Below, in pieces: positions 38,934-49,709 of a stretch of DNA of 64,000 nucleotides. The translations under genes were made by a program, and so were the position numbers. Each line of letters begins with the position of its first letter. Position 1 is the first letter of the stretch. The notes below the pieces were generated by a model. The model worked only from the letters and a program-made list of their open reading frames with translations, made no database searches and was not told where the DNA came from. The stretch comes from an uncultured Endomicrobiia bacterium (GTDB taxonomy: Bacteria > Elusimicrobiota > Endomicrobiia > DTEH01), in NCBI GenBank assembly GCA_937928765.1, contig CALFVX010000017.1, forward strand, positions 1 to 64,000, written 5' to 3'.

Positions 38934-39740
38934 TCAACTTTTAAAAACTCTACTAAATAAAATACCAAAAATAAACAAAAAAACTACTATTGTAGGAGTT
39001 GATGGTAAATCTATAATGAAAGAAAAAATTAATCCTAAAATTGTTGAAACAACTGATATGATTAGATTTTTATAAATCAGTTGTTTTATATTTGGTGAAG
39101 AAATTAATGCAAAACTACATGGAATAACTAAATAACTAAAACTTAGTATTAAACCAATGCTTCTTAAAAAAAATATTATGTTTAATCCAACAATTATAAA
39201 AAAAATAAAATTTAAAATTTTATAGTTTATACCAAAAACATAACTTGTATGAGTATCTGAATACATAAAAAATAATTGTCTGTTAAACAAGATGAAAAAT
39301 ACTATGCTAACTAAAAATATAAATATGCTAAAAATTAAGTCCCAATTTTTAACTATAAGAATATTTCCTGACAAAACATCCAAAATATATGTCTCAAAAA
39401 AATTAGTTTTAGATAAAAGTAATACACTCAAAGAAAATGAAACTGCATATACTATTCCAACCAAACTGTCTTCTGAAAAATTTTTGTCTTTTTTATAGAA
39501 ACTAAACAGACATAAACCTAAAAAAGTAACTAATATCATACTTAAATACGCATTAAAAGAAATTATGATTCCTGCAACCAAACCTAAAACTGCAAGTTCT
39601 GCTATAGCTAGGGTTATAAATATTGCTCTTTTTAAAACTACAAAAATTCCTAATAAACTAAGTGTTATAGATGAAAAAATCCCTATAATTAAAGATTTTA
39701 AGAAAAGATTTTGAGTTAAATGCTCTAAAATAGTATTCAT
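38934..39740 (-). CDS. znuB: Metal ABC transporter permease (ZnuB type), cluster I
   Basis: A 268-residue permease of the ABC-3 (ZnuB/MntB) family with about eight helices. Typical segments are SLLGIFVVLKRAIFITLAIAELAVLGLVAG near the N-terminus and LPSTPTIVVFLFIFG at the end. It overlaps the ATPase gene by 4 nt. Together with the two genes upstream it forms a complete cluster A-I metal importer. Zinc is more likely than manganese because the linked outer-membrane protein is histidine-rich, but that is an inference. Confidence 0.88.
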   Translation of the reverse strand: MNTILEHLTQNLFLKSLIIGIFSSITLSLLGIFVVLKRAIFITLAIAELAVLGLVAGIIISFNAYLSMILVTFLGLCLFSFYKKDKNFSEDSLVGIVYAVSFSLSVLLLSKTNFFETYILDVLSGNILIVKNWDLIFSIFIFLVSIVFFILFNRQLFFMYSDTHTSYVFGINYKILNFIFFIIVGLNIIFFLRSIGLILSFSYLVIPCSFALISSPNIKQLIYKNLIISVVSTILGLIFSFIIDLPSTPTIVVFLFIFGILFSRVFKS

Positions 39741-40480
39741 ACTTTAATAAATTTCCAATCTTCAATTTTATGAATTTTTATATCTACTTTAAAAACTTCT
39801 GATATTTTTTTTCGTAAAAAATCTATATCTTCGACTTCGTCAATTATATCAATAGCTCCATTGTATACTAAAAATAACCTATCTACATAATTTAAAACTG
39901 TTTCTAAGTTATGAGATGCAAAAATTACAGCAAAATTTTTATCTTGTTTTATATTTTTTATGAACTCAAGCACCATTTTTGTATTAAATAAATCTAAATC
40001 ATTTGTAGGCTCATCTAAAATTAATATATCTGGCTGTTTTAACAAACTTCTAAGTATTAAAACTTTTTGCTTTAATCCTCCAGATAAATTTCTATAAAGT
40101 TCAAACTTTAAATCTTTTATATTAAATTTTTCTATTATATCGTCAATTTTTTGTTTATCTTCTATCTCAAGATTTAATTTAAAATTTTTTAAAAAAGCAA
40201 ATGATAAAATTTCATAAACACTAAACGGATATGTTTCATTAATTGTAAAAATCTGTGGTACATAACCAAATTTTAAATTTCTATTTTTTATAATTTTACC
40301 TTTTAAAGGTTTAATTATACCTAAAATAGTTTTTAAAAAAGTAGTTTTACCAGATGCATTAGGACCAACTAACCCTATAAACTCACCTTCATAAATTGAA
40401 AAACTTAATCTTTCTAAAACTTTTTGTTTTTTATTATATCCACAAAAAAGATTTTTTACCTCTAAAATTTTATTTTTCAT
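39737..40480 (-). CDS. znuC: Metal ABC transporter ATPase (ZnuC type), cluster I
   Basis: A 247-residue ATPase with Walker A GPNASGKTT at residues about 37-45, Q-loop YVPQIF, signature NLSGGLKQK, Walker B ILILDEPTNDLD and switch His in FASHN. It powers the adjacent permease. Its start overlaps the binding-protein gene by 11 nt and its stop the permease gene by 4 nt, so the three are one transcription unit. Confidence 0.92.
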   Translation of the reverse strand: MKNKILEVKNLFCGYNKKQKVLERLSFSIYEGEFIGLVGPNASGKTTFLKTILGIIKPLKGKIIKNRNLKFGYVPQIFTINETYPFSVYEILSFAFLKNFKLNLEIEDKQKIDDIIEKFNIKDLKFELYRNLSGGLKQKVLILRSLLKQPDILILDEPTNDLDLFNTKMVLEFIKNIKQDKNFAVIFASHNLETVLNYVDRLFLVYNGAIDIIDEVEDIDFLRKKISEVFKVDIKIHKIEDWKFIKV

Positions 40481-41375
40481 ACTTACATATTGCTTCTATA
40501 ATTGTATCAATTAAAGTAATATAATCTTTTATTTCTTTACTTCCGCCAACAGATAAAGCCACAACTTCATATCTTACACCAACAGATTTTGAAACAAAAT
40601 CTGTATATTTTGTTGAATAAAAATTTTCATGCAATATAACTGTTGGTTTTTCATCTTTTAATTTTTCTATTAAATATTTAATGTATTTAGGACTTGGTGG
40701 TACAGAAGGTTTTGGCTCTAAAGTTGCAATTTCTTTAAGTCCAAAGAAATCACAGAAATAGGCAAAACTTTTATGGTATGAAACGACTTTTTTGTTATTA
40801 ATCTTTGCTATTTTTTCTTTCCATATATAAACTTTTTCTTCAAGTAATTTTAAATATCTATTTTTGTTTGTCTCAAAATAACTCTTAAAATCAGGCATAA
40901 GAATAGCTAGACGTTCAGTTATGTCTTCCAAAATAATTTTTGCATTTTCAGGAGACAACCAATAGTGAGGATTACCAAATATATGAATCTCACCCATGCT
41001 AGCATCTATTTTACTCTGAGGGACTTCAAGTTTTTTTATTCTTAAAGAAACATCTAAATTACCAACTTCGCCATAGAAAACTTTTTTATTCCCTGAAGTA
41101 AAAATCAAGTTATCAACCCAACTATCTAAATCCATACCAATTCTTACAATCAAATCTGCTTTTCTTATATTAGCAACCATTGAAGGTCTTAATTCAACAT
41201 TATGCGGATTCTGCCATCCGTAACTTAAAGTTATAACTTCTGCTTTATCTTCAGCAATAACAGAAACAAAATGGGCTAAATCTTGTGTTGTTGTTACCAC
41301 ATAAATTTTATCTTTAACTTTAGAAAAACAAAAATTAAATAATATCAAACTTATAAAAAAAATCCCCCTCTTCAT
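40470..41375 (-). CDS. znuA: Metal-binding protein of ABC importer (ZnuA type), cluster I
   Basis: A 301-residue cluster A-I binding protein with a signal peptide. The usual metal ligands are visible as His in NPHNVELRP, His in NPHYWLSPE and His in SYHKSFAYF, with a further candidate in ILHENFYS. There is no His-rich loop. The classical NPH...NPHYW...H set suggests zinc or manganese. I use the ATG at 41375: GGAGG lies 5 nt upstream, and the track TTG overlaps that site. Upstream by 50 nt is the histidine-rich outer-membrane protein gene. Confidence 0.9.
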   Translation of the reverse strand: MKRGIFFISLILFNFCFSKVKDKIYVVTTTQDLAHFVSVIAEDKAEVITLSYGWQNPHNVELRPSMVANIRKADLIVRIGMDLDSWVDNLIFTSGNKKVFYGEVGNLDVSLRIKKLEVPQSKIDASMGEIHIFGNPHYWLSPENAKIILEDITERLAILMPDFKSYFETNKNRYLKLLEEKVYIWKEKIAKINNKKVVSYHKSFAYFCDFFGLKEIATLEPKPSVPPSPKYIKYLIEKLKDEKPTVILHENFYSTKYTDFVSKSVGVRYEVVALSVGGSKEIKDYITLIDTIIEAICKYEK

Positions 41376-41425
41376 ACTATCCTCCAAATTAAAAAATCAA
41401 TATAATTTAGCAATTATAAAAAAAT

Positions 41426-42514
41426 TTATTCTAACATATGGCTGTGGGGACCAAAACCAAAAACAAATTGGAGATATAATCTATGATTGTTGTCTTGCTC
41501 GTTCTTATATTGTGTCCTAAAGTATGTTGATTCAGTAATGTTTCTTGTAATAACAAAACTTAGGGAAGAAAATACTTCTTTTTTTTCAAGTTCTTGTTCA
41601 TCTACAACTTTTGGTTCTTCAACATAATCTGTTCTTATTCCTAAGGCCCAATATTTAGAAATTTTGTAATCCAAAAACAAATATCCACCTAATCTGTTAT
41701 ATATTCCTAAAGGTATATCTCGGATAAGATGAAAAATTTCTGTTTGAACTTTAAAAACTTTATAAGCAGAAATTATATGTTTATAAGTGAAATCTAAACT
41801 TAATATATTAACATCATCTTTATGATAAGAAAAATCGGGGCCTTTACAAACCAAATGATTTAGTCCAAGTTCTAACTCTGAGATCTTACTTAATGGAAAA
41901 CTTAACCACAGCTTAGAATTATAACCTCTATCAGATAAAGAAAAATTTTCATTGTTATGTTCATCTTCATTATCATGGTTATGTTGATGAAACTTAGGAA
42001 TATCCCATATACCAAATGTTATTCTTGAAAAAAAATTAAAAGGTAAATTATAATTTAACCAAAAACCATCGCCAACTAAATTATGTTCACCAAAAAATTT
42101 TTTCATAAACTCTGGTTGGTCAAAATATCCTCTATGATGAGGATGAATTTTGTTTATTTTGCCAAAATCTATGTATTTTCTACCAAAATCCAAACCTAAG
42201 CCTCCAACAATTGTCTGAAAACTCACATATCCTTCATCTAGTTCAACTTCAAATATATTTTCATGTCTATGTAATGACCATATTATATCTGAACGAATTT
42301 GAGGATAAAGATAGCCTTGAAATACTAACTCTATTTCTTTTATATTTAATAAATTTTTTGATTCTTTAGAAATTTCGCTATAAAAATTACTAATTATGGA
42401 AATATCTGGAAGCTTATATAGGATATTTTTATTAGCAGATAGTGATGTTTGAGTATAAACTGTTAGGTTAAAAAATAAAGATATATATAAAAATGTTAAT
42501 AAAATGTTTTTCAT
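41426..42514 (-). CDS. Histidine-rich outer-membrane beta-barrel protein linked to metal importer I
   Basis: A 362-residue protein with a signal peptide and alternating aromatic beta strands. It has histidine-rich loops (KINKIHPHHRGYF, FHQHNHDNEDEHNN) and ends in GFGPHSHMLE. There is no plug domain, so it is not a TonB receptor. Its place just upstream of the ZnuA-type gene and its His/Asp/Glu loops suggest an outer-membrane metal-binding porin that supplies zinc to the periplasmic protein. No named family could be assigned by eye. AAAGGAG precedes the ATG. Confidence 0.7.
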   Translation of the reverse strand: MKNILLTFLYISLFFNLTVYTQTSLSANKNILYKLPDISIISNFYSEISKESKNLLNIKEIELVFQGYLYPQIRSDIIWSLHRHENIFEVELDEGYVSFQTIVGGLGLDFGRKYIDFGKINKIHPHHRGYFDQPEFMKKFFGEHNLVGDGFWLNYNLPFNFFSRITFGIWDIPKFHQHNHDNEDEHNNENFSLSDRGYNSKLWLSFPLSKISELELGLNHLVCKGPDFSYHKDDVNILSLDFTYKHIISAYKVFKVQTEIFHLIRDIPLGIYNRLGGYLFLDYKISKYWALGIRTDYVEEPKVVDEQELEKKEVFSSLSFVITRNITESTYFRTQYKNEQDNNHRLYLQFVFGFGPHSHMLE

Positions 42515-44161: not shown

Positions 44162-44767
44162 CTATTTATTTTCTGTAGCAACAAAATAAATCTTTTTGTT
44201 ATCTAAAAATTCTTTTATTGTAAATTTTATTTTTTTAAACCATAAGAAAAGCTTATATTCTTCAGGCAAAAGGTCATCTTTTATAACACCACCTGTTTTT
44301 ATATGATTTTTATTAACTATATTTTTATTTTCTGAATGCACAATAACAAAATATCCTTTAGGTTTTAATACTCTTTTTATCTCTTTTAATACTTTTAACT
44401 TATAAACAAAATGTGGGAATGTATCAAAACATACAATGCAATTGAATTTTTTGTTTTTAAACGGCATATTATATGCATTAGCTTTTATATATAAAAATTT
44501 ATCGCCAAACTTTTCTTTTGCTTTATTTAACATTTTTTCTGAAAAATCTAATGCATATACTTCACCTTTATCCCCTACAATAGATTTTAAATATGGCAAC
44601 AAAATCCCTGTACCACAACCTAAATCTAATACTACATCATTATGTTTTATGAATTTTTTTAACAAAGGGAAGATTTTTTTCTCAATTATTTTTTTTCTTT
44701 TTATAAAATTTTTAGATTCTTCAGTCCAAGAGATTGCAAGATTGTCAAAAAATTGTTTTCTGTTCAT
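44162..44767 (-). CDS. Class I SAM-dependent methyltransferase at end of nickel operon
   Basis: A 201-residue UbiE-like methyltransferase with motif I VLDLGCGTGILLPYL at about residues 46-60, then VYALDFSEKML, IVCFDTFPHF and LKPKGYFVIVHSENK. The substrate is unknown. It overlaps the cluster II permease gene by 4 nt (ATGA), so it is the last gene of the TonB receptor-importer operon. A role tied to metal use, such as cofactor or metallophore methylation, is possible but unproven. Confidence 0.85.
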   Translation of the reverse strand: MNRKQFFDNLAISWTEESKNFIKRKKIIEKKIFPLLKKFIKHNDVVLDLGCGTGILLPYLKSIVGDKGEVYALDFSEKMLNKAKEKFGDKFLYIKANAYNMPFKNKKFNCIVCFDTFPHFVYKLKVLKEIKRVLKPKGYFVIVHSENKNIVNKNHIKTGGVIKDDLLPEEYKLFLWFKKIKFTIKEFLDNKKIYFVATENK

Positions 44768-45561
44768 AATAGATAATTTCTTTTAGGTGATATTAATAAA
44801 CTTATAAAATAAATTAAATTTGCAAAAATAATTATAGTTGCTGCTGTAGGTAAAGATAAAAAATAAGAAATAATAAGTCCAAATATAGAAGATATCAATG
44901 CGAAAATTATTGATAAAATATACATTGTCTTTAAATTATAAGTCAGCTGATATGAAGTTAAAGCAGGCAAAGTAATCAAACTAAAAACCAAGATGCCGCC
45001 TATATAATTAAGATTTACTGCAACTGTTATACTACATAAAAACAGTAAACTATAAAAAATAAATTTTTCATATATCCCAACAGATTTAGCAATTTCACGA
45101 TTAAACAATACAGCAAAAATTTCTTTATTAAACAAAATTATAAAAATAACTATTACAATAAAAATAATGCTTAAAACAAATAAAGAAGTCCAATTTACTG
45201 CAAGAATGTTTCCCCAAAGAAAATTCAAAATTTCATTTTTTGGCCATTTGATTAATCCTGCTAAAAGAAAACTCAAACCTAAAACAAAAGAAAAAATTAT
45301 ACTTGTAGAGATGTTCAAAGAGATGTTTCCTTCTTCAGCTAAAGGTCCTATAAACATAGAAAAAGTTATGCAAAAAATTATTGATGATAGCAGTGGATTT
45401 ATATTAGATAAAATTCCAAAAATTGCACCTAAAAATGCTGAGTGTGCCATTGCAACACTTATGAAAGGAATATTTAACAATACAACCCATACGCTTACAA
45501 TACCGCAAATTATACCACTCAAAATTGAAACTAAAAAAATTCTTAAAAAAAATTGGTTCAT
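44764..45561 (-). CDS. Metal ABC transporter permease (ABC-3 family), cluster II, predicted nickel
   Basis: A 265-residue permease with about eight helices (IICGIVSVWVVLLNIPFISVAMAHSAFLGAIFG, LPTAATIIIFANLIYF). It is the same family as the cluster I permease, but clearly divergent and in a different operon. Histidine in AMAHSAFLG is typical of the family. It would move the metal released by the Cys-Pro-Gly-His binding protein. Metal identity (nickel, perhaps cobalt) is inferred from the NikR sites upstream of the operon. Confidence 0.87.
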   Translation of the reverse strand: MNQFFLRIFLVSILSGIICGIVSVWVVLLNIPFISVAMAHSAFLGAIFGILSNINPLLSSIIFCITFSMFIGPLAEEGNISLNISTSIIFSFVLGLSFLLAGLIKWPKNEILNFLWGNILAVNWTSLFVLSIIFIVIVIFIILFNKEIFAVLFNREIAKSVGIYEKFIFYSLLFLCSITVAVNLNYIGGILVFSLITLPALTSYQLTYNLKTMYILSIIFALISSIFGLIISYFLSLPTAATIIIFANLIYFISLLISPKRNYLL

Positions 45562-45564
45562 CTT

Positions 45565-46353
45565 TTAAGGATGTATAGGATCTATGTGAAAATGTCTTTT
45601 ATTGTCTATATTTTCTACTTGGACCTCACATTCATAAAGATTTGACAAAAAATCTTTTCTTAAAACTTCATCTGGTTTACCAGAGGATATTATTTTCCCA
45701 TTTTTTAAAAGTATTATTTTATTACAACAACTTTGGATATGATTTAAAATATGTGTTACACAAATTGTAGTTATATTTTTTTGCTTATAAATATTTTCTA
45801 TAATATCTAACAGCTCATATTGAGATTTTGGGTCTAAATTTGATGTTGGTTCATCTAATATTAAAATTTTTGGTTGTTGGACGAGAACTCTTGCAATGTG
45901 TACTTTTTGAAATTCTCCACCGGAAAGATGTCCTATGGGTTTTTCTGTCAAACTATCAATTTTTAAAAAACTTATTACTTCATCAATTATAATTTTATCT
46001 TCATAGTTAAGGTTCTTAAAAAATCCAAGTTTGCCAAACCTACCTAAAGAAATTATGTCTTTTACTAAAAAAGGTAGTTTTTTATCTATTAAATAATTTT
46101 GTGCTACATATCCAATTTCCTTTCTTACCTCAACAATATTTTTTCTACAAAGTTTTTTTCCAAACACATAAACCTCTCCAAAAGAAACTTTCTTTAACCC
46201 ACTTATAACATTAAGCAAAGAACTTTTACCAGCACCATTAGGTCCAATAATAGTAAGAAAAGTTTTTTCTTCTAAGTCTAAATTTATATCTTCCAATATT
46301 ATCTTTTTTTTACCATACCACAACCAAACATTTTTCAATTCTATTACTTTCAC
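45565..46353 (-). CDS. Metal ABC transporter ATPase, cluster II, predicted nickel
   Basis: A 262-residue ATPase with Walker A GPNGAGKSS near residue 38, signature HLSGGEFQKV, Walker B ILILDEPTSNLD and switch His in CVTHI. The C-terminus HFHIDPIHP is histidine-rich and could bind metal, a possible feedback site. It overlaps the binding-protein gene by 4 nt and ends 3 nt before the permease start. Confidence 0.92.
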   Translation of the reverse strand: MKVIELKNVWLWYGKKKIILEDINLDLEEKTFLTIIGPNGAGKSSLLNVISGLKKVSFGEVYVFGKKLCRKNIVEVRKEIGYVAQNYLIDKKLPFLVKDIISLGRFGKLGFFKNLNYEDKIIIDEVISFLKIDSLTEKPIGHLSGGEFQKVHIARVLVQQPKILILDEPTSNLDPKSQYELLDIIENIYKQKNITTICVTHILNHIQSCCNKIILLKNGKIISSGKPDEVLRKDFLSNLYECEVQVENIDNKRHFHIDPIHP

Positions 46354-47123
46354 TTCAATACCTTTTCAATTTTATAGATGTTTTCTTTAAATGTATTAAT
46401 ATAATTATCTTTTACAAAATTTGTTAAAACAATATGTTTTATTCTAAGATCTTTTGCAAGCTGTTTTGTAATTTTATAACCACTTTGTAGGTTGTCTGCT
46501 ACAAAAATAATTTTTCCATACATTGAAAAAATATTTTTGAAATCTTTTAAACTCACCTCTTCTTGTCTAGGATAAGAATATATAACTTCAAAACCTAACC
46601 AGTTAAGAAATTCTTTTTGATGTTCAGAAGAAATCACTTTATAACCTTTGTATTTTACAAATTTTTGTTTTATTTCTCTAACATACTCATTTACTTTATT
46701 TTCGTATTCTTCATAATTTTTCTCAAAGTATTCTTTATTTTCTGGCTGAAGTTCACATAGAAGTTTAAAAATTTCTTTACCAACAGTAAGATTTGTTTCT
46801 GGCAACATAAGATTTTTATCAACAGAAATTTTATAAATTTTTTTTGTTTTATCTAAAATTTTTTTCACCCAAATTTCCCAACCATGATAAATAAACAGAT
46901 CTGCATCAAAAATATTTTTTAAATCTTTTATAGACAAATCAAAATGTCCAGGACAAGTACTATAAGGTATTATGTTGATAACTTCTGCTTTATTTTTTAC
47001 AATCTCCTTAACAATTGCAGAAATATTTGTAGTAGTTGAAACAACTTTTATTTTCTTTGTTTCAGAATTAATAAACTGTGTTAAAAAAATTAATATTAAA
47101 ATAATAAACTTTATTTTTTTCAT
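46350..47123 (-). CDS. Cluster A-I binding protein with CPGH motif, predicted nickel
   Basis: A 257-residue secreted protein of the ZnuA fold. Where classical members have NPHxFEP, it has STCPGHFDL with Cys57 and His60. Further ligand candidates are His80 (IYHGWE), His168 (SSEHQKEF) and Asp in FVADNLQSG. It lacks the His-rich loop and is shorter than usual. The changed ligand set suggests a metal other than zinc, and the adjacent nikR and NikR-like sites point to nickel. It starts 6 nt after the TonB receptor stop. Confidence 0.85.
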   Translation of the reverse strand: MKKIKFIILILIFLTQFINSETKKIKVVSTTTNISAIVKEIVKNKAEVINIIPYSTCPGHFDLSIKDLKNIFDADLFIYHGWEIWVKKILDKTKKIYKISVDKNLMLPETNLTVGKEIFKLLCELQPENKEYFEKNYEEYENKVNEYVREIKQKFVKYKGYKVISSEHQKEFLNWLGFEVIYSYPRQEEVSLKDFKNIFSMYGKIIFVADNLQSGYKITKQLAKDLRIKHIVLTNFVKDNYINTFKENIYKIEKVLK

Positions 47124-47129
47124 AAAAGT

Positions 47130-48920
47130 TTAAAAATTACATACTACACCTAACCCAAAAGTTCTTTTCGGCATTTGATAAATCCCACTTGCAGAAGGTA
47201 CTTCTGTATAAATTTTGTATTCTATATCAAAAATATTATCAACAGTAGCATAAATATTTAAATTTTTCATTACCTCATAATTAAGCTTTAAATTTGTAAC
47301 ATTATAATCATCAATTCTTTCTTTTACATTATTTGAAAGATAATAATACTCGCTCACATATTCGTTATACAAACTGCTACTTAATCTTCTAATATTAAAG
47401 CTTACTAAACCTACCACTTTGTTCTTAGGTTGAGCAACAACTTTGTCTTTTGTATCAATATATCCGTAACTTAGATAAAAATTTAAAAATTTCAAAGGAT
47501 TTATTTCTGTAATTATTTCTAAACCATCAAAGTCAAACTTTCCTATGTTTTTTTTCTTGCCAGAAACAACTTGTATTAAATCTTCTCCTTTCATATTAAA
47601 AACTGTAAAATCAAAATATATAATATCAAATAATTTATTTCTTACACCAAACTCTATATTTGTCACTTTTTCAGGTTTCAACTCAGTATTTGAATTATTA
47701 AAAAGGAACAAATCGTTAATATGTGGTGGTCTAAAACTGTTTGTCCAAAAGGTTCTTAGTGTTGTATTTTTAGATAATTCAAAAACAACTCCTGCTTTTG
47801 GTGTTAAAAAACTTTTAGCATATTCGTCATAATGATATCTTAAACCAAAATTAAGAGTAAATTTTTTAAACAATATATGCCTATCATCAAAATAAAGACC
47901 GTAGTCATATTTCTTATATTCTTTTAAAAAATTTTGTGGTGCACCAGAAATTACCTCGCCCCATTGGTTTCTAAAATCAAAGCCATAGGTTAAAATATTA
48001 TCTCTAAACAAAACACTATTTCCATAAACCATAACACCATCTGTTATATCTTTAGAATGCCACCCGTCAGAAAATTTGTGTTCACCAAAACTGCGATAAA
48101 ATTTTGTTGTTAAATTCATAAATTTAAAATTATCTTCATAATTTAAATCTAACGAACCACGATTATAGTCATTCCAAGTACCTACGGATGCAGGCAAAGG
48201 TTCATACTTTATACCATCAAAATATTTAAAAGAAAAATTTAGTTTTGAAGTATTAAAGAAATTATAACCTACAGATCCGCTAAAATCTGTTGCTTTATAC
48301 GAAGAATTTGTTGTATGCCCATCAGAATATCTTCTGTCTGCTGAAATAAAATAATTAAATTTAGAAAAATTTTGTCCTAACTGAAACCTACCTATTTCAG
48401 TGTTATAAGAACCACCATATAGATTTAAACTTGCTTCAAAATCTTTCTTTGTTTTTTGAGTAATAATATTAACAATACCACCAAATGCTTCAGGACCATA
48501 TACAACAGATTCTGGTCCACGAATTATTTCTATTCTGTCTACATTGTTGAAAGGCAAAGTATTAGTTACTGAACATCCAAAAATAGACATCTTATCTGGC
48601 CTACCATCTATAAAAATTCCAAGCCGTCTTCCGTTATCACCTAAACCACGAATATTTACATCTGCTCTGCCAAAAGCAGAAGTTTTTGTTATAAAAACTC
48701 CAGGGATTAATTCTAATATATCAGTCGTCTGATAAAAGTTTAAAACTTTTATATCTTCTTTAGTTAAAACAGAACATGACAACGGCAAACTTCTTATTTC
48801 CATATCATATCTTGTAGGAGTAGAAACAATTCTTTCAGCAGAAATATAAATTTCTTGTTGTTGAGCAAAAGATAAAGTCGTAAATAAAATTATTAGAACA
48901 AAAATTAAAAACATTTTCAT
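47130..48920 (-). CDS. TonB-dependent receptor, predicted nickel transporter
   Basis: A 596-residue receptor: signal peptide (to AQQQ), TonB-box-like EIYISAERI, plug (SLPLSCSVLTKEDI, DVNIRGLGDNGRRLGIFIDGRP, VDRIEIIRGPESVVYGPEAFGGIVNIIT) and a barrel ending in the terminal Phe of GLGVVCNF. It is the first gene of the operon with binding protein, ATPase, permease and methyltransferase. I use the ATG at 48920: GGAGGT lies 8 nt upstream, and the track start reads through that site. The ligand may be nickel or a nickel chelate, based on NikR context only. Confidence 0.9.
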   Translation of the reverse strand: MKMFLIFVLIILFTTLSFAQQQEIYISAERIVSTPTRYDMEIRSLPLSCSVLTKEDIKVLNFYQTTDILELIPGVFITKTSAFGRADVNIRGLGDNGRRLGIFIDGRPDKMSIFGCSVTNTLPFNNVDRIEIIRGPESVVYGPEAFGGIVNIITQKTKKDFEASLNLYGGSYNTEIGRFQLGQNFSKFNYFISADRRYSDGHTTNSSYKATDFSGSVGYNFFNTSKLNFSFKYFDGIKYEPLPASVGTWNDYNRGSLDLNYEDNFKFMNLTTKFYRSFGEHKFSDGWHSKDITDGVMVYGNSVLFRDNILTYGFDFRNQWGEVISGAPQNFLKEYKKYDYGLYFDDRHILFKKFTLNFGLRYHYDEYAKSFLTPKAGVVFELSKNTTLRTFWTNSFRPPHINDLFLFNNSNTELKPEKVTNIEFGVRNKLFDIIYFDFTVFNMKGEDLIQVVSGKKKNIGKFDFDGLEIITEINPLKFLNFYLSYGYIDTKDKVVAQPKNKVVGLVSFNIRRLSSSLYNEYVSEYYYLSNNVKERIDDYNVTNLKLNYEVMKNLNIYATVDNIFDIEYKIYTEVPSASGIYQMPKRTFGLGVVCNF

Positions 48921-48949
48921 AAATTTTACCTCCATTATATAAAATTTTT

Positions 48950-49067
48950 GTTAACTTTATTAACTTACTAACTTTTTATAAATTGCATCATACTTTCTAC
49001 CAATTAAATATGAAATCAAAATAGATTAAACAACTTAATCACTATTTACTAACTTAATAAAGCTAAC
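48950..49067 (-). ncRNA. Candidate structured leader of the TonB receptor operon
   Basis: In the minus-strand RNA a 5' arm at 49067-49046 can pair with a 3' arm at 48972-48950: about 20 of 22 positions pair, counting one G-U, with two mismatches. Inside are two smaller hairpins: GATTAA/TTAATC with a 5-nt loop (49040-49024) and AATTG/CAATT (49005-48981). This gives a three-way-junction-like layout ending about 15 nt before the ribosome site. The DNA is AT-rich, so chance pairing is a real concern. Confidence 0.35.
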
Positions 49068-49193
49068 AACATTATATCCTTTTTTTACTTTTTCAATTTT
49101 TCGCTTCTACCAACCATCTAATTATCTTTTTATTTATCTTAATAATTATAACTTAAAAGATTACTAAGGTTAACAAATTTATAGAAATTTTAT

Positions 49194-49220
49194 GTGTTAC
49201 TTTTATAAAATTTGTGCTAC
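49194..49220. promoter_or_regulatory. Candidate NikR operator before TonB receptor operon
   Basis: On the plus strand GTGTTAC (49194-49200), 13 nt, GTGCTAC (49214-49220): a direct repeat with 20-nt period, two turns of DNA. The same architecture recurs before nikR. It lies 10 nt upstream of a possible -10 box of the TonB receptor operon, well placed for repression. Confidence 0.6.
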
Positions 49221-49267
49221 TTAAATATAGATTTTACTATGTTAACTATATTATAAAATATTTACTG

Positions 49268-49675
49268 TTATAAACTTGATGTGATACTTAATGTACCGTG
49301 TTGGACACCTTTCATTGAGGAAAGATTATCTTTTAGTTGTTTTATCAAAGACGCTTTGCCTTTTACTATTATTACTTCAAGACAATGATGATGATCTAAG
49401 TGTATGTGTAAAGATGAAATAATTAACTTTTGATAGTTATGTTGAACATCAACAATTTTATCTACAAGTTCTCTTTTTTGATGATTATATACAATAGATA
49501 TTGAACCAGCAACTATTTTATCAGAAACCCAACTTTCTTTAACAAACTCAGCACGGATTAAATCTCTTATTGCTTCAGAACGATTTTTATAATTTTTACT
49601 TTTTATATATTTATCAAATCTATTAAGCAGATCTCTAGGTATTGCTACACCAAAACGTTTTAATTTTGAGTTCAT
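49268..49675 (-). CDS. nikR: Nickel-responsive regulator NikR
   Basis: A 135-residue ribbon-helix-helix regulator. The N-terminal DNA-binding strand is KLKRFGVAIPRDLLNRFD, with RSEAIRDLIR as the helix. The C-terminal ACT-like domain has all four high-affinity nickel ligands: His79, His90, His92 and Cys98. Their spacing of 11, 2 and 6 is identical to Escherichia coli NikR (76, 87, 89, 95). It represses nickel uptake genes when nickel is abundant. The gene lies upstream of the TonB receptor operon on the same strand, with a candidate operator in each promoter region. Confidence 0.96.
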   Translation of the reverse strand: MNSKLKRFGVAIPRDLLNRFDKYIKSKNYKNRSEAIRDLIRAEFVKESWVSDKIVAGSISIVYNHQKRELVDKIVDVQHNYQKLIISSLHIHLDHHHCLEVIIVKGKASLIKQLKDNLSSMKGVQHGTLSITSSL

Positions 49676-49682
49676 ATTTTTA

Positions 49683-49709
49683 GTAACACAATTTTTATTT
49701 TTGTAGCAA
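49683..49709. promoter_or_regulatory. Candidate NikR operator before nikR
   Basis: On the minus strand TTGCTAC (49709-49703), 13 nt, GTGTTAC (49689-49683), ending 7 nt before the nikR ATG. Spacing and half-sites match the site at 49194-49220. A promoter TTGAAA-N17-TACAAA on the minus strand has its -10 box inside this repeat, so NikR would repress its own gene. Confidence 0.6.

Follow-up and report, generated by a model that had tools for sequence, protein, structure and literature searches.

A NikR-linked ZnuABC-like operon with a TonB receptor as a predicted nickel uptake system in an uncultured Endomicrobiia bacterium

The window analysed here, the first 64,000 nucleotides of contig CALFVX010000017.1 from an uncultured Endomicrobiia bacterium, carries a gene for the nickel-responsive regulator NikR close to genes for an importer resembling ZnuABC, and the question that this locus raises is which metal the importer carries. 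The initial annotation had placed nikR, a TonB receptor, a cluster A-I binding protein, an ATPase, a permease and a methyltransferase in a single run, and had proposed that a ZnuABC-like pump has been recruited for nickel under NikR control. All of these genes are present on the minus strand where they had been placed (Table 1). The nikR product combines a ribbon-helix-helix domain with a NikR_C domain bearing a His-His-His-Cys site; it scored 104.9 bits against the NikR_C profile (cut-off 22) and 172 against the NCBIfam NikR equivalog (cut-off 105), and its gene is the sole NikR gene of the host genome. The four nickel ligands that had been noticed are H79, H90, H92 and C98, and their spacing is the same as that of the E. 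coli set H76, H87, H89 and C95.

The claim of a single run held in part. From the receptor to the methyltransferase, the genes form a tight five-gene operon on the minus strand, from 48920 down to 44162; of its four successive junctions, the first and third are gaps of 6 and 3 bp, and the second and fourth are overlaps of 4 bp each. The nikR gene is not part of this run, as 347 bp separate its stop codon from the receptor start and a predicted operator lies between them; because of this separation, the uptake operon is probably transcribed from a promoter of its own, with nikR as a neighbour outside it. The receptor reading frame is open to 48935, but the start at 48920 is preferred because GGAGGT lies 8 nt upstream of its ATG, whereas the ATG at 48935 lacks a comparable Shine-Dalgarno site. 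A His-rich tail of the ATPase was considered as a feature of the gene set and was rejected, because only a few relatives have it.

Table 1. Genes and predicted operators of the nikR region, with positions in the window
Feature	Position	Strand	Basis
Predicted NikR operator, direct repeat TTGCTAC-N13-GTGTTAC	49683..49709	-	7 bp upstream of nikR start
nikR, nickel-responsive ribbon-helix-helix regulator, 135 aa	49268..49675	-	profile matches, ligand residues
Predicted NikR operator of uptake operon, direct repeat GTGTTAC-N13-GTGCTAC	49194..49220	+	~270 bp upstream of receptor start
TonB-dependent outer-membrane receptor, BtuB-like fold	47130..48920	-	Plug and barrel domains, model, Shine-Dalgarno
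Periplasmic binding protein, PF01297 (cluster A-I fold), CPGH variant	46350..47123	-	profile, alignment, model, tree
ABC ATPase, GTG start	45565..46353	-	profile; 4 bp overlap with binding-protein gene
ABC-3 family permease, ZnuB-like	44764..45561	-	PF00950, 170.7 bits
Class I SAM-dependent methyltransferase, last gene of the operon	44162..44767	-	profile, alignment

The regions upstream of nikR and of the operon share the pattern KTGYTAC-N13-GTGYTAC, which was spotted by eye and tested afterwards, so that its test is post hoc for the window. Its core, TGYTAC-N14-TGYTAC, had exactly two matches in the whole 1.54-Mb genome, one before nikR and one before the operon, and none in 100 shuffles of the window. 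The published consensus, the relatives and a spacing control are independent of the window pattern. The NikR signal of the delta-proteobacteria is GTGTTAC-[N13/14]-GTAACAC, and everted pairs occur at some targets (PMC545781). We counted pairs of half-site cores at spacings of 8-21 in 74 related loci collected by a search with the binding protein. Direct pairs occurred ten times at N14, once at N15 and at no other spacing, and inverted pairs occurred seven times at N13 and once at N14, with one stray at N17; the background was 0-0.4 per spacing, and everted pairs showed no enrichment in these loci. The inverted form in the relatives is the published delta-proteobacterial consensus. In 22 of 25 nikR-bearing loci, the best pair of the whole locus preceded nikR, the receptor or the binding-protein gene, although two of these 22 are four-mismatch matches that carry no weight. 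The window sites thus have the paired GTGTTAC-type half-sites, 13-14 bp apart and upstream, by which the NikR regulon is recognised, but their pairs are direct, whereas the published sites are inverted or everted. The predicted operators have no further match in the genome, keep their position among relatives and agree with the published consensus; the proposed NikR control of the neighbouring operon thus gained support, and we consider such control likely; nikR itself is probably autoregulated.

Similar sites were seen elsewhere. In the congeneric genome G088 (L165:11316-11817), a site identical to the operon operator at 25 of 27 positions precedes a different outer-membrane-type protein at the end of a contig. 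The possibility that this protein corresponds to the gene heading the NikKLMQO-like cluster in genome G134 was considered, but no BLAST similarity was found between the two. Desulfotalea psychrophila has an unexplained two-gene operon (422176-177) with two NikR sites (PMC545781, Table 4), which may be part of a related uptake system.

A comparative search for nikR next to CPGH-type binding proteins, proposed earlier as a check, showed that this linkage extends across several families of the phylum and beyond it. Among elusimicrobiotes, nikR lies beside the receptor, binding protein, ATPase, permease and methyltransferase genes in several families. Outside the phylum, the cassette was found in WOR-3, Stahlbacteria, Sumerlaeota, Latescibacterota, FCPU426 and Auribacterota, and also in Acidobacteria, Syntrophales, Syntrophorhabdales and Desulfovibrio. 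In Bacillota, Armatimonadota and Chloroflexi, the loci comprise the three ABC components (binding protein, ATPase, permease), in most cases accompanied by the methyltransferase, and a TonB receptor is missing from most of them. Where there was enough flanking sequence, the receptor was directly upstream in 44 of 59 loci and nikR was present in 14 of 40, the other 26 having no nikR within the stretch examined, which counts against the nickel reading. The recurrence of the arrangement, within the phylum and outside it, is more than chance would give.

Variants of this arrangement were also observed. In three loci (L168, L169 and L170, from G020, G044 and G033), nikR adjoins a cassette-type receptor, and the genes for the binding protein, ATPase and permease are elsewhere in the genome; here the link between receptor and nikR is independent of the ABC genes. 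Loci L089-L127, from Thermodesulfobacteriota and others, carry a TonB receptor of another subfamily, in which an FGQVLGD plug loop replaces the KM-FGC loop. A divergent second NikR-like protein, seen at L179:10463-12901 and as weak NikR_C matches in family f16, adjoins a TonB receptor and in several genomes is near an ordinary ZnuA; this protein may sense another metal.

Could the operon encode an ordinary zinc or manganese importer that adjoins nikR by chance? Its binding protein has the fold and family of cluster A-I proteins, which mostly carry zinc or manganese: the PF01297 profile gave 88.5 bits (cut-off 29), and an AlphaFold model (pLDDT 93) showed the cluster A-I fold, with a TM score of ~0.79 to YfeA and PsaA. 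Metal-uptake genes, moreover, cluster generally in these genomes; some elusimicrobiote genomes, G018 and G068 among them, have ordinary ZnuA genes close to nikR, and for this reason the proximity of nikR to a ZnuA-like gene was not taken as decisive. The assignment to cluster A-I stood as to fold and family, but the initial annotation had missed the loss of the canonical ligands. Its sequence includes CPGHFD, and two canonical ZnuA ligands, the second and third His, are absent, so that the full set of four ligands of ZnuA/PsaA-type proteins (His, His, His/Glu and Asp/Glu) is not there. In an alignment of 50 sequences, C57, P58, G59 and D62 do not vary, H60, Q169 and D210 hardly vary, and a DNLQSG motif accompanies the invariant CPG. 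Scores against the named ZnuABC and AztABC equivalogs were all below the curated cut-offs, and the binding proteins of the cassette form one clade apart from ordinary ZnuA with 100/100 support, in a tree whose outgroup comprises only three different proteins and whose branches are long. This separation and the lost ligands argue against zinc or manganese, as do the NikR operators that precede the operon, a second, canonical ZnuABC-like set a few kb off, and a distribution complementary to that of NikM, described below. Taken together, we regard a chance neighbour of this kind as very unlikely. The second set, at 38934-42514 on the minus strand of the window, has a binding protein with canonical H/H/H/E ligands, is headed by a His-rich outer-membrane-type protein (41426-42514) without a Pfam match, and is probably the zinc system.

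We then asked what the gene content of the host implies for the cargo. The genome (1.54 Mb, 96.5% complete) was read stretch by stretch, covering ~1.53 of the 1.54 Mb. The nearest relative of the binding protein is a protein of an uncultured Endomicrobia bacterium, and related loci of the host's class are mostly labelled Endomicrobiales or Elusimicrobia, which fits an endomicrobial elusimicrobiote as the very probable host. The genome encodes a single [NiFe]-type large subunit, which has the two Cys pairs (RICGIC and DPCYCC) and lies in a group 4, complex-I-like cluster. Matches to hypC, hypD, hypE and hypF were above their cut-offs, and a hydrogenase protease is encoded as well. No hypB match was found in the assembly, but hypB may be missing from the assembly rather than from the cell, because hypD runs off a contig end. 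The host genome has neither the CbiM/NikM component that a NikMNQO ECF nickel transporter would have nor a NiCoT permease (PF03824); it has one SBP_bac_5 protein, and the NikA model matches were far below their cut-offs.

Among genomes of the class that bear NikR, CbiM/NikM was present in eight of the nine without the cassette binding protein and in one of the 19 with it (Fisher p 2.5e-5); for CbiM in the sampled phylum, the counts were 22 of 58 and 1 of 20 (Fisher 0.0045). These values are indicative only, since the genomes are related, so that the test overstates their independence, and some are incomplete. In the sister genome G134, a DUF4198-DUF4198-CbiM-CbiQ-ATPase cluster lies ~3.2 kb downstream of nikR. 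Genes of the hyp or hydrogenase kind also neighbour the cassette in relatives: HypE, HypF and HypB in L102, HypE in L059 and HypB in L120, whereas L062 has a VhuA-like hydrogenase large subunit. Genes beside the binding protein in family f2 were at first guessed from their lengths to be hyp genes, but translation identified them as purine and mnmA genes. The hydrogenase with hypCDEF in a host without NikM, NiCoT or CbiC, the complementarity with NikM and the hyp and hydrogenase neighbours support nickel as the likely main cargo, and lend weight to the proposal that a ZnuABC-like pump was recruited for this metal.

The same neighbourhoods bear on whether its cargo is cobalt, or both nickel and cobalt indiscriminately, with NikR sensing either metal. 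CobN-type genes lie near the cassette in two loci (L080, from Ammonifex, and L096), and among NikM/CbiM systems nickel and cobalt importers interconvert, both of which favour this reading. Against these two loci, however, stand the four with hyp or hydrogenase genes. The host genome has no CbiC, and because of this absence the host is very probably without corrin ring synthesis and has no obvious cobalt demand; it also has a separate B12-salvage-like locus (L215), with BtuF/BtuC-like genes, a cobA-type adenosyltransferase and a second TonB receptor. In the loci tested, no cobalamin riboswitch was found close to the cassette; the sole match (L119) is ~7.6 kb from the binding-protein gene and next to an ECF cluster. 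A cobalt or mixed cargo thus appears improbable.

The form in which nickel would arrive is a further question, and the receptor and the methyltransferase bear on it. The receptor model (pLDDT 86) has BtuB as its nearest solved fold (TM 0.82/0.90), but the receptor scored only 140 against the BtuB equivalog (cut-off 836), and its plug loop, KM-x-x-FGC-x-x-T, is conserved. The methyltransferase METHYLTRANSFERASE belongs to a distinct set in which W14, H119, H144 and H155 are invariant among relatives. Its presence in the run had been noticed, but not its status as a conserved part of the cassette: it occurs in 47 of 56 related loci with enough flank, monoderms included, and it stays with the ABC genes where nikR and the receptor lie elsewhere (L045, L046) and in Bacillota loci where no receptor was seen. 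A cytoplasmic step tied to import, either ligand release or ligand synthesis, is its possible role, and this is the least certain part of our proposal.

One could envisage from these proteins that the cassette carries a metallophore or another organic ligand that holds nickel only sometimes, and that the methyltransferase helps to make this ligand. BtuB-like receptors are normally a class for chelates, the binding protein is without the full set of four canonical protein ligands, and the conserved methyltransferase has three invariant His residues. In the loci examined, however, the cassette is not repeatedly accompanied by any further gene for biosynthesis or export, and the persistence of the methyltransferase with ABC genes whose receptor is elsewhere or not seen also speaks against this possibility, which we consider doubtful. 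It overlaps with nickel uptake if the ligand normally holds nickel. In a nested clade of family f2, from the same class (L037-L053), the His of CPGH is missing (CPSNND, CPGSYD); members without nikR are often without a hydrogenase match too, and the receptor loop His is replaced by Gln as well, the window receptor having Asn at this position. The cargo may have changed in this clade, and the joint loss of the CPGH His and the receptor loop His suggests a changed ligand or chelate cargo.

Based on these comparisons, the operon is likely to be a nickel uptake system that is repressed by nickel-loaded NikR. Under nickel shortage, NikR would leave both predicted operators, and the BtuB-like receptor, powered by TonB, would bring nickel through the outer membrane, probably in the form of a small chelate. 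Nickel would then pass by way of the CPGH-type binding protein to the ABC-3 permease and its ATPase, the methyltransferase may act in the cytoplasm on a nickel ligand or metallophore precursor, and the imported nickel would supply the group 4 [NiFe] hydrogenase. A tentative extension, in our view a long shot, is a separate and widespread importer family with a methyltransferase partner, in which a nickel chelate enters through the receptor and the CPGH protein and ligand methylation in the cytoplasm frees the metal or recycles the ligand. If the nickel assignment is correct, many uncultured anaerobes (Elusimicrobiota, WOR-3, Syntrophales, Bacillota and others) would have nickel importers whose proteins are likely to be annotated as importers of zinc or manganese, the missing nickel-entry step would be filled for a genome with a [NiFe] hydrogenase and neither NikMNQO nor NiCoT, and CPGH...DNLQSG would be a sequence signature for recognising such importers. 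Cultured carriers such as Desulfofundulus and Desulfoscipio would allow direct tests.

Judged by its sequence features, the cassette looks like an undescribed family of nickel importers. A literature search found no ZnuABC-type nickel importer; subscription journals were thinly covered in it, and an earlier prediction may exist. NikABCDE is likewise an ABC importer for nickel under NikR control and also has a periplasmic binding protein, but its binding protein and permeases are of the peptide/opine family, unrelated to PF01297 and PF00950. FrpB4 and NiuBDE of Helicobacter resemble the cassette in pairing a TonB receptor with an ABC importer for nickel, although NiuBDE is of the FecCD/siderophore type and not ABC-3. 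NiuBDE has been named as a nickel importer (PMC7840056). BtuB and CirA share the barrel and plug, and BtuB is the nearest solved fold, yet both are only ~20% identical to the cassette receptor, which is set apart by its low BtuB equivalog score and its plug loop. With ZnuABC, AztABC and PsaABC, which carry zinc or manganese, the cassette shares the binding-protein fold, the ABC-3 permease and the ATPase; unlike them, it has predicted NikR operators in place of Zur, MntR or Fur control, the CPGH and DNLQSG motifs, a methyltransferase gene, a separate clade and lost canonical ligands. NikMNQO and NikKMLQO, the NikR-regulated nickel importers of delta-proteobacteria (PMC545781), are alike in NikR control, in GTGTTAC-type half-sites 13-14 bp apart and in a predicted role in nickel supply, but they are ECF systems with CbiM/NikM, whereas the cassette has an ABC-3 permease, a cluster A-I binding protein and operators that are direct repeats.
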